A stretch of 64,000 nucleotides of DNA, taken from Ruminiclostridium sp. Lineage in GTDB: Bacteria > Bacillota > Clostridia > Oscillospirales > Oscillospiraceae. Positions 17,188 to 50,168 of this stretch are shown piece after piece. The notes below the pieces were generated by a model. That model did not search any database and was not told the DNA's origin. It saw only the letters and a list, made by a program, of their open reading frames with translations. Made by a program: the position numbers and the translations under genes. The stretch covers positions 1 through 64,000 of the forward strand of contig JAFSFC010000038.1 of NCBI GenBank assembly GCA_017435425.1, in the 5' to 3' direction. How positions within the stretch are numbered: position 1 is the first letter of the stretch; each line of letters begins with the position of its first letter.

Positions 17188-17225
17188 GCAATGTTTCTCC
17201 TTGGTGATAGGGATAAGGTGAAAAA

Positions 17226-17393
17226 CCTCGTAGAGTTTCGCCGTCGCAACGGCGAAATAAGATGCAATATGTTTTCTGGCGCGACATGTGCGTGCCAGAA
17301 AACTCTTCTCGGCCTGCCAGTGTGCCCAAGGGGCGCGCGCAGCAGGCTGCAATCCTTCACTTTCGGAAAAGGCTTGCCTTTTTCGAAAGTCTG
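17226..17393 (+). repeat. Four-stem-loop interspersed element, copy A
   Basis: About 168 bases that fold into four stem-loops in order: 1, TTTCGCCG/CGGCGAAA; 2, GTTTTCTGGC/GCCAGAAAAC with a loop containing GCGACATGTGCGT; 3, a long outer pair around GGCCTGC and GCAGGC with a nested GCCC/GGGC hairpin; 4, ACTTTCG/CGAAAGT. Conserved linkers are CCTCGTAGAG before stem 1, CTTCTC before stem 3 and CAATCC before stem 4. The end of stem 4 lies 1 base from the murE-argB stop codon. It is in plus orientation; copy B faces it on the other side of the same gene. Confidence 0.9.
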
Positions 17394-17394
17394 G

Positions 17395-19758
17395 TTATTT
17401 CTTCTCCATGGTGGTGCCCAGGGACTTCTCCGCAATGGACTCCAGCAGGATGGCGTGGTCCATACGGCCGTCCAGAACGGTGACGGACCCCACGCCGTGC
17501 TCCACGGCATGGATGCAGTTGAGGGTCTTGGGGATCATACCGCCGGCGATGAGGCCGGAATCCATGAGCTCCTTGGCCCGGGCCACATCCATCTTGGCGA
17601 TGCGGGTGGACTGGTTGTGGCTGTCCACCAGGATGCCGTCGGTGTCGGTCAGGAATACCAACTTGTCGGCACCCACTGCCTCGGCCACGGCACGGGCGGC
17701 ATCGTCGGCGTTGCAGTTAAAGGCTCCCCCCTCTTCGCTGCGGGCAATGGGGGAGACCACGGGCAGGTATCCGGCATCCAGGAGGGTGGTCAGCAGGCGG
17801 GGGTCCACCTTGGTGATGGTGCCCACCAGGCCCAGCTTCTCGTCCTTCTGACGGGCGGTGATGAGGCCGCCGTCCCGGCCGGACAGGCCGCAGGCCCGGG
17901 CGCCGATGCGGTCCAGGGCCGCCACGATGGACTTGTTCACCCGGGCGGACAGGGCCATCTCAGCCCCTTCCAGGGCGGCCTGGTCGGTGACCCGGTAACC
18001 GTTTTCAAACTTGGTCTCCACCTGCATCCGCTCCAGCAGGGCGGAGATCTCCTTGCCGCCGCCGTGGACCAGGATCACCCGGACACCCACGGACTGAAGG
18101 GCGGCCACGTCCTCCAGGATGGTGTCGGTGGAGGTGGCATCCAGGGCGGAGCCGCCGTACTTGACCACCATGGTCTTGCCCTCGTACCGGCGCAGCAGGG
18201 GAAGGACCTCCAGCAGGGAGCGGACCTTGCTCATGCCGTCCATGCCGTGCTGGACATCGTACTCGTGGAGGAACTTCTTGGAGTACTCCACGTCGGAGGG
18301 GGTGTCGATGTATTCGATGCCCCGCTTCTGGCGGGTCTCAGCACCCTTGCCGGTGAGGAGGATGACGGTGGGTTCGGTGCAGCCCAGGACGGCCTGGCGG
18401 ATGGCCTCGCCCCGGTCGGGGACGATGGAGTACTCACAGCCCTCCTGCTCCACATATTGTGCAATATTCTTGCAAATATTCTCCACGGGCTCCTCGCCGG
18501 GGTCCTCCTCGGTGAGAATGACCAGGTCGGAGAAGCGGCCGGCAATTTCGCCCAGGTCCTTGCGGCGGTCATAGGCCTTGTAGCCGGGGCAGCCGAAAAT
18601 GGTGATGATCTTCCGGCCGGGGTACTCCTCCTTCACAGACTGGAAGAGGGTCTCGAAGGAGAGCTTGTTGTGGGCGTAGTCCACCAGCACGGAGATCTTC
18701 TCGTCAGAGTTGGTATAGAGCTCCATACGACCGGGGACACGGGCCTTCATGAGGCCGGTGAAGGCGTACTGCTCGGGGATGCCCAGGGCCTCGCAGACCG
18801 CCAGAGCGGCCAGGGCGTTCTGGACGTTGAACAGGCCGGGCATGGTCAGGCAGAACTCCCGGTTGTAGCGGGGAGTCTTCACCCGGAAGACGATATCCCC
18901 GCCCTTTTTCCGGACCTGATAGCCGAAGATGGTGGCGGAGGGGTCCTTCTGGGAGAAGGTGATCTTCCGGGGGCAGACCCCGGCGGCCTCCAGGACCCGG
19001 TCCACGTGGTCGGTGTCCAGGTTCACGCAGGCGGCGGCTGCCTGGGAGAAGATCCGCAGCTTGGAGTTGAAATAGTCCTCAAAGTCGGGGTGTTCGATGG
19101 GGGAGATGTGGTCGCTGCCGATGTTCAGGAAGACAGCGGCGGCAAACTCCACATTCTTGACACGGTCATACTTCAGGGCCTGGCTGGAGACCTCCATGGT
19201 CAGGTAGCGCATGTCGGTGGACACGCCGTTGGCAAAGTGGCGCTCCAGGTCCAGGGGCTCGGGCGTGGTCAGGTGGGACTCAAACTTCTCCACGCCGTCG
19301 TAGGTCTCAATGCCGCCCACCACGCCGCTGGGCTTCTGCTTCTTGGCGGCCAGGTACTCGTCAAAGATATACTTCAGGTAGTAGGTGGTGGAGGACTTGC
19401 CCTTGGTTCCGGTGATGCCCACCACGCTCAGCTTGCCCGAGGGGTGATTGTAGTAGAAGTCGGCCAGGATGGCCATGGTCAGGCGGACGTCACTGACCTG
19501 GAGGCAGGGGAGGTCCACATCCTCATAGGGGGTTTCTGCGATGTAGGCAAAGGCCCCCTTCTCCTTGGCGGACTGGAGGAACTCGGCCTTGAAGTGGGCG
19601 CCCTTGCAGATGAACAGGGTGCCGGGCTCTACCTGGCGGGAGTCACAGCTGACCAGGGCCACCTCCCGGGTCAGGGGCGCGCCCTTGGCCTGGATGAGCA
19701 GGTTCTCTCTCTGTAACAGCTGGATGTAATCCCCCAGGGGGTAAAGGGTCAGGTTCAT
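17395..19758 (-). CDS. MurE-like Mur ligase fused to acetylglutamate kinase (ArgB)
   Basis: One open frame of 787 residues joins two enzymes. Residues 1 to about 505 are a MurE-type ligase adding the third stem-peptide amino acid to UDP-MurNAc-dipeptide: GTKGKSSTT (P-loop), TTPEPLDL, EVSSQ and DYAHN are present. Where diaminopimelate-adding MurE proteins have DNPR, this one has EDPG, so a lysine-type substrate is more likely. Residues 511-787 are a complete amino-acid kinase of the ArgB type: KYGGSAL, VHGGGKEIS, GLSGRDGG, NADDAA, TDTDG and GGMIPK, with the short N-terminal helix of arginine-sensitive enzymes. No binding site precedes the internal Met codons at the junction. The ATG at 19758 has AAAGG 8 bases upstream. 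It may be co-expressed with the racemase and D-Asp-ligase genes. Confidence 0.85.
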   Translation of the reverse strand: MNLTLYPLGDYIQLLQRENLLIQAKGAPLTREVALVSCDSRQVEPGTLFICKGAHFKAEFLQSAKEKGAFAYIAETPYEDVDLPCLQVSDVRLTMAILADFYYNHPSGKLSVVGITGTKGKSSTTYYLKYIFDEYLAAKKQKPSGVVGGIETYDGVEKFESHLTTPEPLDLERHFANGVSTDMRYLTMEVSSQALKYDRVKNVEFAAAVFLNIGSDHISPIEHPDFEDYFNSKLRIFSQAAAACVNLDTDHVDRVLEAAGVCPRKITFSQKDPSATIFGYQVRKKGGDIVFRVKTPRYNREFCLTMPGLFNVQNALAALAVCEALGIPEQYAFTGLMKARVPGRMELYTNSDEKISVLVDYAHNKLSFETLFQSVKEEYPGRKIITIFGCPGYKAYDRRKDLGEIAGRFSDLVILTEEDPGEEPVENICKNIAQYVEQEGCEYSIVPDRGEAIRQAVLGCTEPTVILLTGKGAETRQKRGIEYIDTPSDVEYSKKFLHEYDVQHGMDGMSKVRSLLEVLPLLRRYEGKTMVVKYGGSALDATSTDTILEDVAALQSVGVRVILVHGGGKEISALLERMQVETKFENGYRVTDQAALEGAEMALSARVNKSIVAALDRIGARACGLSGRDGGLITARQKDEKLGLVGTITKVDPRLLTTLLDAGYLPVVSPIARSEEGGAFNCNADDAARAVAEAVGADKLVFLTDTDGILVDSHNQSTRIAKMDVARAKELMDSGLIAGGMIPKTLNCIHAVEHGVGSVTVLDGRMDHAILLESIAEKSLGTTMEKK

Positions 19759-19773
19759 AGTGAATTCCTTTCT

Positions 19774-19941
19774 AAGCTTGTCGAAAAAGGCGAAGCCTTT
19801 TCCGACAATGGGGATTGCGGCCTTCTGCGCGCGCCCGATGGGCACACTGGCAGGCCGAGAAGTGTTTTCTGGCACGCACATGTCGCGCCAGAAAACCTAT
19901 TTGACTTTATTTTGCCACTGCGGTGGCAAAACTCTACGAGG
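19774..19941 (-). repeat. Four-stem-loop interspersed element, copy B
   Basis: Minus-orientation copy very similar to copy A in its linkers and stem 2, but with changed arms elsewhere that still pair: stem 1 TTTTGCCA/TGGCAAAA and stem 4 TTGTCG/CGACAA. It lies in the leader of murE-argB, with stem 4 toward the gene. Copies A and B thus bracket the fusion gene as inverted repeats. Confidence 0.88.
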
Positions 19942-19969
19942 TTTTTGACAGTCTGTTTCTGTCTGCGCA

Positions 19970-20008: not shown

Positions 20009-20719
20009 TCAGATATTTCGAAGTTTTTTGCCGCAGTGGAGGATGGCCTGTTCGGCCAGGACCTCCATGGCGTCGATATAGTAAGGGGGCAGGCTGTGGA
20101 GGTTCCGGTAGACCGACAGCTCGGTGCAGCCCAGGATGGCGCAGTCGCAGCCGGCCTGGCGCAGGAAGTCATCGATCTCGGCAAACTTCTCCCGGGAGCC
20201 GGTCTCACCCCGCTTGATCTCATCGTAGATGATGGACATGACCGTCTTCTGGATGTGCTCCGGGGGCACCACGGCGGTGAGGCCGGCGGCCTCCAGCTCC
20301 TTCTGGTAGATCCCCGTCCGGATGGTACCGTCGGTGGCCAGGATGCCCACGGTCTTCTTCCCTGCCGCCTGGATGGCCTTTACGGTCTCTCTGGGCATAT
20401 GGATGAGAGGGATGGACAGCTCTGCCTGGATCCGGTCGGCAAAGAAGTGGGAGGTGTTGCAGGGGACGGCCAGAACGGTGCAGCCCGCCCGCTCCAGGAG
20501 CTGGGCGTCGGCCAGCAGGTGCTGGAAAACCTCCTCCTGACGGCCCCCTAAGATACCGGCGGTGCGGTCGGGGATCTTGGCGTCGCTCCAGATGAGGACC
20601 TGCAGGTGCTCCTGGTCGGTCTCGGCCTGGGTGCGGTCGATGATCCGCTGATAAAAGGTGTTGGTGGCCTGGGGACCCATGCCGCCCAGAACACCCAGGA
20701 TGCCTTCTTTGTTGTTCAT
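20009..20719 (-). CDS. Aspartate/glutamate racemase family protein
   Basis: A 236-residue PLP-independent racemase. It has GVLGGMGPQAT near the N-terminus and both catalytic cysteines in their usual frames, VPCNTS (about residue 80) and GCTELS (about 190). The subfamily with GGMGP is aspartate-racemase-like, so D-aspartate is the expected product. AAAGGAG precedes the ATG at 20719. It starts 41 bases after the D-Asp-ligase-like gene and would supply its substrate, as in the aslfm-racfm pair of Enterococcus faecium (established), which is the comparison I rely on. Confidence 0.87.
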   Translation of the reverse strand: MNNKEGILGVLGGMGPQATNTFYQRIIDRTQAETDQEHLQVLIWSDAKIPDRTAGILGGRQEEVFQHLLADAQLLERAGCTVLAVPCNTSHFFADRIQAELSIPLIHMPRETVKAIQAAGKKTVGILATDGTIRTGIYQKELEAAGLTAVVPPEHIQKTVMSIIYDEIKRGETGSREKFAEIDDFLRQAGCDCAILGCTELSVYRNLHSLPPYYIDAMEVLAEQAILHCGKKLRNI

Positions 20720-20759: not shown

Positions 20760-21968
20760 TCAATTTTTCTTTTCGTAATACTGCTTGAACTTCTTAAAAT
20801 GGCCCAGCAGGTTCTTCTTCATGCGCAGGGTGCGGCCGAAGGCCTTGTCCTTGTCGTAGAACAGGGGGGTGACCTCCCTGCCCTCCCGGATGCGGGCCTT
20901 CATCTCGGCATGGTAGTCGGAGACGATGAAGTCGTAGGCCACCTTCCGGGGGACCACCCGCCACAGGCTGGGGTTGTCCGCCAGAACGAAGGGCAGGTCC
21001 TTGCCCTCCACCCGGTCCTCCACCAGGAGCTTGGCAATGTTGTACCCGGCGCCGGTGACGTAGTAATTGCTGCGGCCCTGGCGGCAGTTGATCTCAAAGA
21101 ACTTGTACTTGCCGTCCCGGGTGTCGTACTTGATGTCGAAGTTGGAGAAGCCCACATAGTGCATCTCCTCCAGGAAGGCCTTGACCTTCTCGCAAATTTC
21201 CCGGTTCACCTCAGTGAGGATGACGGCATGGTTGCCGATGCCGTGGGGGGTGTGCTCCTCCAGGAGCACGTGGCCCAGGCACATGAGCTTCACCTGGGCG
21301 TTCCGGTCGGAGTAGCAGGTGAGGACCCGCATGTTGCTGTCGTCGCCGGGGACGAAGTCCTGGATGATCATGGTGTCGGGATAGCCGGCGGCGTAGACCT
21401 TGTCCAGGACCTCCTCCAGGTTCTTCCGGTCGGGGCAGGTGAAGACCTTTTCGTTGCCCTCAAAGGGGTGCTCCCAGTAGGCCACGCCGTTGGAGGGCTT
21501 GCAGATGTAGGGGGCCTGGAAGGGGAGCTCGAAGTCGTGGCCCATCTCCTTGCGGTAGACGAAGGTGCCGGGGTGGTCGATGCCGAACTGGTCGCAGAGC
21601 TCATAGAAGTATTCCTTGTTGTTGAGCTTGCCGATGGTGTCGCCGGCAATGTAGGGGGCGATGCAGTTGGCGGGGAAGGACTCCTTGTTCTCGGCAGCCA
21701 GCTTCACATAGCTGTCGCCGCAGCCCATGACCAGAACGGTCTTGTCCGCAAACTCAGCGGCCACGTCGGCCACGTTCTTGCGGAAGGTCTCGGGGTCCTC
21801 GTTCTTGGGGCAGACCCGGTAGTCGATGATATCGGAGCCGTAAGCCGGGCCGGAGGCAAACTTGCCAAAGCAGACCGACTTGACCCCGTAGGCCTCGTGG
21901 AAGGCACGGGCCACGCTGTAGACGTTGATGTCCCCGCCGAAGAGCAGGGGCTGGAAATTGTGTTCCAT
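20760..21968 (-). CDS. ATP-grasp ligase resembling D-aspartate ligase (Aslfm)
   Basis: A 402-residue ATP-grasp enzyme. From memory it closely follows the E. faecium D-aspartate ligase that attaches D-Asp to the lysine of the peptidoglycan stem: the N-terminal GDINVYSVARAFHEAYG block, IIQDFVPGDDSNMRVL and MCLGHVLLEEHTP in the ATP-grasp core, and FFEINCRQGRSNYYV with the metal-binding Glu and Asn. ATP gives an acyl-phosphate of the D-Asp side-chain carboxylate. It is the first gene before the racemase, and the MurE-ArgB gene follows, so the three genes probably make a D-Asp-bearing wall precursor. AAAGAAG is a weak ribosome site. Confidence 0.82.
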   Translation of the reverse strand: MEHNFQPLLFGGDINVYSVARAFHEAYGVKSVCFGKFASGPAYGSDIIDYRVCPKNEDPETFRKNVADVAAEFADKTVLVMGCGDSYVKLAAENKESFPANCIAPYIAGDTIGKLNNKEYFYELCDQFGIDHPGTFVYRKEMGHDFELPFQAPYICKPSNGVAYWEHPFEGNEKVFTCPDRKNLEEVLDKVYAAGYPDTMIIQDFVPGDDSNMRVLTCYSDRNAQVKLMCLGHVLLEEHTPHGIGNHAVILTEVNREICEKVKAFLEEMHYVGFSNFDIKYDTRDGKYKFFEINCRQGRSNYYVTGAGYNIAKLLVEDRVEGKDLPFVLADNPSLWRVVPRKVAYDFIVSDYHAEMKARIREGREVTPLFYDKDKAFGRTLRMKKNLLGHFKKFKQYYEKKN

Positions 21969-47917: not shown

Positions 47918-48386
47918 AGGGGGAACCTCCAAACATTGAAAGGATGGGAACCCTGTCTTTTCTCCGCAACAAAGGGAGAACAGGGATTATGGGTAGTGAT
48001 AGTTGTAGTAGGGGGACGGAAAAAGTGGAAAACTCCATTTTCGCCAGCATTTGCAAGGATTTTTTGTCCACGCCCCCTGTGGGACAACCTTTGGCAAAAA
48101 ATTTTGCCGAATGTGGACAACTTTTCTTATCCACACAGGATCTTCCACTTTTCCACAAAATCCGGTGGAAACATGTCATGGTTGGTCGAAGGATCTCTTT
48201 TTGAAAAAGAGCCTCGCAGAGTTTCGCCGCCGCAGCGGCGAAAGAAAGTTAGATTCGTTTTTCGGCGCGACATGTGCGTGCCGAAAAACACTTCTCAGCC
48301 TGAGAGTGCCTGCTAAGCAGGCGCGGGTCAGGCTGTAATCCCCCACTTTTGGAATGGGACGAAGATCCATTCCAAAAGTCTTGGTT
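47918..48386. other. dnaA-dnaN intergenic region, probable origin half
   Basis: 469 bases without a gene. The half nearer dnaN carries DnaA-box-like sites at 48064-48072 (TTGTCCACG), 48112-48120 (TGTGGACAA), 48127-48135 (TTATCCACA, exact consensus) and 48149-48157 (TTTTCCACA), a palindrome GGCAAAAAATTTTGCC at 48093-48108 and A+T-rich tracts. The half nearer dnaA is structured element F (48210-48381). This matches the second half of a Bacillus-type bipartite oriC. The unwinding site is not pinned down. Confidence 0.7.
48210..48381 (+). repeat. Four-stem-loop interspersed element, copy F
   Basis: Plus-orientation copy: stem 1 TTTCGCCG/CGGCGAAA, stem 2 GTTTTTCGGC/GCCGAAAAAC around GCGACATGTGCGT, stem 3 CAGCCTG/CAGGCTG with nested GCCTGC/GCAGGC, stem 4 ACTTTTGGAATGG/CCATTCCAAAAGT. 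It ends 5 bases from the dnaA stop. Copy G lies inverted on the other side of dnaA. Confidence 0.88.
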
Positions 48387-49852: not shown

Positions 49853-50023
49853 CCAAAACATGAGATGCTTTCAGCGCCCCATGTTTTGGTGGGGGATCAC
49901 GGCCTGCTGCGCGCACCCCTTGGGCACACTGGCAGGCCGAGAAGAGTTTTCCGGCACGCACATGTCGCGCCGGAAAACGGATCTAACCTTATTTCGCCGC
50001 TGCTGCGGCGAAACTCTGCGAGG
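49853..50023 (-). repeat. Four-stem-loop interspersed element, copy G
   Basis: Minus-orientation copy: stem 1 TTTCGCCGC/GCGGCGAAA, stem 2 GTTTTCCGGC/GCCGGAAAAC around GCGACATGTGCGT, stem 3 CGGCCTGC/GCAGGCCG with a nested hairpin, stem 4 CCAAAACATG/CATGTTTTGG. It lies upstream of the dnaA promoter, facing copy F. Confidence 0.87.
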
Positions 50024-50168
50024 CCTTTGCATGGATTTTTTTTGATTTTGGTTATCTTTCTGAAAAATTTTTTTCAAAAAGGTGTATCCCAAAACAAAAG
50101 CCCCCACAATATCTTGGGTGAAAAGAGAAAATGACGGATTTTCCCTATTTTTTCGCAGAAATTTTGGG

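Follow-up and report, generated by a model that had tools for sequence, protein, structure and literature searches.

The window analysed here, a 64,000-nucleotide stretch of a Ruminiclostridium sp. genome (contig JAFSFC010000038.1), encodes a single protein in which a MurE-like peptidoglycan ligase (MurE2) is joined to an acetylglutamate-kinase (NAGK, ArgB)-like domain, a combination of known families in a new domain architecture that recurs in many gut Clostridia. MurE attaches amino acid number three of the wall peptide, and ArgB belongs to the synthesis of arginine and ornithine. The fusion gene comes third in a conserved same-strand cluster, following genes for an ATP-grasp ligase and a racemase. 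It is probable that the cluster specifies a wall-peptide pathway using lysine or ornithine together with D-aspartate (D-Asp), beside the diaminopimelate (DAP) pathway. For the fusion itself we favour, tentatively, the explanation that its kinase half works as an additional acetylglutamate kinase, no longer under arginine control, and feeds ornithine to the ornithine- or lysine-adding MurE to which it is fused. The parts of the fusion gene are as follows.

17395..19758, minus strand: MurE2-ArgB fusion gene, 787 aa (reading frame, Pfam, NCBIfam, start-site check)
18256..19758, minus strand: MurE-like ligase half, residues 1-501 (ATP loop TGTKGKS, LTTPE, MEVSSQALKY, DHISPIEHP, K233, YAHN, EEDPGEE, GKGAET)
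18181..18255, minus strand: residues 502-526, spanning the junction and the kinase half's N-terminal helix (508-523 by prediction)
17398..18180, minus strand: acetylglutamate-kinase-like half, residues 527-787 (catalytic K533, G536, G567/G568, D685, G740 and K744 invariant; arginine motif lost)

The fusion is one 787-codon frame (19758..17395). The initial annotation had given its position and length exactly, leaving the minus strand unstated, and had correctly observed that both halves keep their catalytic motifs. Pfam places Mur_ligase_M at residues 115-322, Mur_ligase_C at 343-472 and AA_kinase at 528-762, all well above cut-off, and the NCBIfam models for murE (TIGR01085) and argB (TIGR00761) score 309 bits (cut-off 257) and 243 bits (cut-off 151), respectively. 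A good ribosome site, AGAAAGGA, precedes the first ATG; two internal ATGs at the junction (18243 and 18234) have no purine-rich site upstream and are not conserved as methionine in other fusions. A structural model of the fusion has a predicted local distance difference test score (pLDDT) of 86 and a predicted template modelling score (pTM) of 0.56, so the orientation of the domains is unsure. The modelled first half matches MurE structures (template modelling (TM) scores, taken by target length, of about 0.80-0.89 among the best chains), the kinase half matches hexameric NAGKs with a TM score of 0.92, and the model, like NAGK, has a helix just past the junction.

A single search across public genomes identified 58 further full-length fusions among 80 loci, with 51-96% identity; counts out of 59 given below comprise these and the window's own. 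Cultured isolates with an unbroken fusion include Evtepia gabavorous KLE1738, Clostridium viride DSM 6836 and several Pseudoflavonifractor. The fusion is present in 14 of 15 sampled congeners and, among samples of high-quality genomes, in 7 of 247 from the order and in two more families of the class outside it; it thus spans at least three families of class Clostridia. The initial annotation had named two ways in which it might fail, a sequencing error joining two genes or a second start in use. Sequencing error is excluded because the unbroken fusion recurs in independent assemblies of many species, isolates included, and the internal ATGs offer no support for two proteins from two starts; we found no point in favour of an artefact of either kind and give it next to no probability. 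MurE and ArgB are therefore joined in one protein, a true fusion. No account of a MurE-ArgB fusion was found in the open literature searched, which is not proof of novelty.

Both halves are paralogues of intact housekeeping copies. A second, DAP-type murE (SDNPR) lies on contig C42 of the same genome in the division and cell wall (dcw) cluster, which also holds mraY, an FtsW-like gene, murG and a murA-like gene (names read from translations). A second argB lies on contig C6 in an operon with argH, argC, argJ and argF; here argB and argC were identified by search and the operon's gene names are from translations. The look for a second murE and a second argB that the initial annotation had proposed was thus productive, and its statement that no other arg genes lie near the fusion agrees with the location of the other argB and argC matches on contigs C6 and C1. 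A close relative of the DAP-type dcw murE is present in 48 of 50 cluster-bearing genomes, argJ scores over its cut-off in 44 of the 50, and a standalone argB is found in 30 of 31 genomes with an intact fusion. A role for the fusion as the cell's sole ArgB or sole MurE is ruled out by the copies on C6 and C42.

The ligase half has the sequence EEDPGEE or EEDSGEE where DAP-type MurE has SDNPR, and the DNPR arginine is absent. In alignments its class signatures are common to the L-Lys MurE of Enterococcus faecalis (36% identity) and to the MurE proteins of Latilactobacillus curvatus and Collinsella, the last being its best match in the plasmid collection (41%), and are not those of DAP-type MurE. 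It retains the full N-terminal domain, the TTPE motif and the carbamylation-site lysine K233 of true MurE. In Staphylococcus aureus MurE, the absence of the DNPR arginine and an acidic pocket accompany a substrate side chain bearing an amine but lacking a further carboxylate (PMC3829189). Since MurE2 likewise has no DNPR arginine and has an acid-rich pocket, lysine or ornithine is expected as its substrate, and it is predicted to be a Lys/Orn-class rather than a DAP-type ligase; between these two amino acids, sequence cannot discriminate. No printed wall type for Collinsella was found in the literature searched. The ornithine wall of Collinsella aerofaciens we treat as a lead and not as a test.

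In the kinase half, the equivalents of the Escherichia coli NAGK catalytic set (K8, G11, G45, D162, G184, G213 and K217; PMC3329491) are invariant in all 59 fusions, and the N-terminal helix of the arginine-sensitive NAGK class is present, as indicated by the 508-523 prediction together with a sequence match. The arginine-site motif of that class, E-(L/I)-(F/M)-(T/S)-x-x-G-x-G-T (PMC4490483), counted with a slightly relaxed pattern, is found in none of the 59 fused kinases, compared with 42 of 42 standalone ArgB proteins of related genomes. Arginine sensing by the kinase half is accordingly disfavoured, since the motif is broken in every fusion and intact in every standalone enzyme; of the earlier proposal that the fusion couples arginine status to wall synthesis, direct sensing thus falls away, and a metabolic link through ornithine remains likely. 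Where intact, the kinase halves change at about the same slow pace as their MurE partners, which indicates that they work. The fused kinases group together as a single clade whose stem is long (1.81 changes per column, compared with 0.3 for the standalone clade), and six positions, K569, Y588, E600, P670, D686 and N715, are invariant or nearly so in fusions and different in ArgB. In the alignment, Y588 stands directly before the conserved R589 at the lid hairpin and K569 follows the HGGG loop.

The two other genes of the cluster are as follows.

20009..20719, minus strand: Asp/Glu-racemase family gene, RacD-like (NCBIfam cysteate racemase CuyB model, 223 bits, cut-off 190)
20760..21968, minus strand: ATP-grasp carboxylate-amine ligase, D-aspartate-ligase AslA-like, 402 aa (homology, model)

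The order ATP-grasp, racemase, MurE2 is retained in nearly all loci that extend far enough, and the ATP-grasp gene also adjoins several distant kinase-less MurE2 genes (loci L137, L141, L142 and L145). The wall-related setting that the initial annotation had surmised is consistent with these neighbours. The ligase has full-length homology, with 35-42% identity, to a lactobacillar 'carboxylate--amine ligase'; the homologous gene adjoins an amino-acid racemase gene in L. curvatus and asnB in L. crispatus, and L. fermentum also carries it. Its model (pLDDT 90) has a clear ATP-grasp fold, and a PDB sequence search returned nothing useful. Among the best structural matches by VIA-align are 2pn1 (Z 26.2, root-mean-square deviation (rmsd) 3.0, 291 aligned) and PylC (4ffr; Z 23.5, rmsd 3.4, 296 aligned). 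PylC ligates a D-amino acid onto a lysine side chain. The racemase scores 228 bits with the asp_race subfamily, although the cysteate racemase model also exceeds its cut-off, and it is 42% identical to the racemase adjoining the L. curvatus ligase. In Lactococcus lactis a racD-aslA operon makes the D-Asp cross-bridge (PMC4155827), and the L. fermentum wall contains L-Orn-D-Asx (PMC7488000). Homology and gene context point to putative AslA and RacD identities, and the ATP-grasp enzyme would presumably use D-Asp.

The distribution of the kinase domain indicates a history of gain and loss. In the MurE2 tree, a quick reconstruction with some long branches near the root, in which the nested losses are more secure than the basal order, kinase-less genes are basal and a single fusion event follows (support 92); after it come one loss of the kinase (98) and two degenerations (100 and 98). 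The degenerate domains are about 150-220 residues long, have lost the motifs and most of the N-terminal lobe, and are still in frame. Relative to the MurE half to which they are attached, they evolve about 2-3 times faster in most pairs, and the ratio of non-synonymous to synonymous substitution rates (dN/dS) is 0.24-0.6, against 0.11-0.25 for the MurE half, one very close pair apart. Because cluster and ligase are maintained in lineages whose kinase is absent or degenerate, the kinase is an add-on that the pathway can do without. This dispensability, the non-DAP class of the ligase and the paralogy of both enzymes were not appreciated in the initial annotation.

The genomes at loci L179, L180, L181, L182 and L183, Flintibacter muris among them, have a degenerate fused kinase and also an altered housekeeping-type argB, which has lost catalytic residues and kept the arginine motif (at L179, L180 and L183, the loci examined for this, it lies in the arg operon). 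In most of these genomes a second, distantly related and active-looking argB adjoins argJ, possibly a case of a pseudo-NAGK regulator or of enzyme displacement. Relocation of the fused kinase in the degenerate-domain lineages was considered and rejected, as the extra ArgB is of housekeeping type (38-60% identity to the genome's own ArgB versus 32-39% to the fused kinase). An arginine-insensitive ArgB as its substitute was also rejected, as the incoming ArgB retains most of the motif.

We infer the substrates of all the cluster enzymes, the choice of ornithine over lysine and the supply role of the kinase. In the scheme that we tentatively favour, the aslA-like, racD-like and murE2-argB genes would make a second kind of peptidoglycan precursor, the racemase yielding D-Asp and the ATP-grasp ligase adding it onto the side-chain amine. 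The fused kinase would sustain acetylglutamyl phosphate, and hence ornithine, for the wall when arginine shuts the housekeeping ArgB, and the fusion would fix the stoichiometry and place of the kinase with the ornithine-using ligase. The frequencies of argJ and of standalone argB in these genomes count in favour of this scheme. Several points weigh against it. The dcw murE of the genome is DAP-type, many MurE2 clusters do without the kinase, and no wall type or composition for the fusion-bearing genera was found in the literature searched. The fusion gives no channelling, because ArgC, ArgD and ArgJ, encoded outside the cluster, stand between the kinase and ornithine. In addition, the fused kinases have K569 in place of Pro, Y588 in place of Leu and E600 in place of Gln; since these residues are near the substrate site, the substrate may not be acetylglutamate, and N-acetyl-L-glutamate is an uncertain assignment.

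A different interpretation, which we consider rather unlikely, is that the kinase half has acquired a new substrate: the phosphate would go to the side-chain carboxylate of some other N-acylated acidic residue, for example of the wall precursor or of a D-Asp derivative, and a new wall-peptide modification would result. The initial annotation had likewise named an acylated amino acid, of a wall or small-peptide pathway, as a possible kinase substrate. In favour are the fused-only positions adjoining the substrate site, the single clade on a long stem, and the covalent attachment to MurE2, a ligase acting on a substrate that itself terminates in N-acyl-glutamate. However, the kinase is no obligatory step, as the core cluster persists without it or with a dead one, and the cluster has no reductase or transferase to use a new acyl phosphate.

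It is less likely still that the kinase half is mainly regulatory or a scaffold, forming a hexameric NAGK ring that would bring MurE2 copies together or control their activity through ATP, acetylglutamate or PII state. The helix that interlaces NAGK hexamers is kept straight after the junction, the closest structural matches to that half include PII-bound Synechococcus NAGK, and two lineages keep the domain fused in frame with its catalytic motifs lost. Against this, the catalytic residues are strictly conserved in every full-length domain (59/59), the arginine site is gone, and the shrunken domains, which have lost most of the N-terminal lobe and evolve faster, are as expected of a fading remnant. 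A combined possibility, which we regard as quite improbable, is that two wall chemistries, DAP and Orn/Lys-D-Asp, are specified by the two MurE enzymes and that the substrate of the fused kinase is a new acylated compound of the second pathway, giving an undescribed peptidoglycan modification.

There is only a small chance that the cluster product is a soluble peptide or storage compound made by a repurposed MurE2, in the manner of cyanophycin synthetase. The genome already has a DAP-type dcw cluster, and the pairing of an ATP-grasp with a Mur ligase recalls that enzyme, but MurE2 keeps the N-terminal domain, TTPE and K233 of true MurE and is closer to the E. faecalis and Collinsella MurE proteins than to cyanophycin synthetase, and its ligase partner matches lactobacillar wall-type ligase loci. 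A cyanophycin-type system, for which only weak local matches were seen, was rejected.

MurE2 resembles the L-Lys MurE proteins (E. faecalis; S. aureus, PDB 4c12/4c13) and Collinsella MurE in being a full three-domain ligase with non-DAP signatures, including the absent DNPR arginine and the acid-rich side-chain pocket; it differs in standing beside, not instead of, a DAP-type MurE and in its fusion to a kinase. The kinase half shares its fold, N-terminal helix, catalytic residues and 38-42% identity with the hexameric arginine-sensitive ArgB proteins of Synechococcus, Thermotoga and Pseudomonas, whereas its fusion to MurE, lost arginine motif and fused-only lid residues set it apart, and it falls in a clade separate from housekeeping ArgB. 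The cluster is like the racD-aslA operon of lactococci and lactobacilli in its racemase and adjoining homologous ligase; it differs in then having its own MurE, in a genome with a DAP-type dcw murE, and the use of D-Asp by its ligase is putative. Both enzymes tolerate fusion, as in MurE-MurF (PDB 8f5d) and in the ArgB fusions NAGS/K of Maricaulis and Xanthomonas and yeast NAGK with its DUF619 domain. In those cases the partners are from the same pathway, whereas MurE2-ArgB joins wall synthesis to the arginine pathway.

Several variations were seen at other loci. In 14 loci, including L049, L055, L062, L070, L074, L096, L098, L099, L103 and L107, an alanine-racemase-like gene (named by eye from the sequence) replaces recJ-relA upstream. 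A further MurE-like gene, 33-37% identical to MurE2 and with the motif DNPR together with GAGG(D/N)RPPMRR, lies downstream of MurE2 in several lineages (L053, L054, L059, L061, L063, L101, L105, L108, L110, L112, L113 and L128), including most that lost the kinase. In Vescimonas fastidiosa (L188) a divergent MurE-like gene without DNPR adjoins secA, pgeF and thyA. Rfam, promoter and terminator scans gave nothing informative. In the window, the fusion gene is flanked by two inverted copies of an intergenic repeat of about 165 bp.

17218..17382, minus strand: dispersed repeat copy, about 165 bp, flanking the fusion downstream, in opposite orientation to the 19785..19949 copy
19785..19949, plus strand: dispersed repeat copy, about 165 bp, between the racemase and the fusion

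The two copies are 87% identical. The repeat has internal palindromes and about 40 matches in its own genome, occurs also at positions 48212-48343 and 49892-50029 of the window, and a partial copy adjoins the arg-operon argB on C6.

The series from absent through fused and degenerate to lost shows how a fused enzyme domain was acquired, maintained and then given up in a host pathway that itself persisted. If the explanation that we favour is correct, common gut Oscillospiraceae would have, next to the DAP pathway, another and unannotated route to peptidoglycan precursors, which would bear on NOD1/NOD2 sensing and on the response to lysozyme and antibiotics. The fusion would then represent a naturally feedback-freed acetylglutamate kinase, and ornithine supply and wall synthesis would be linked in this way for the first time.
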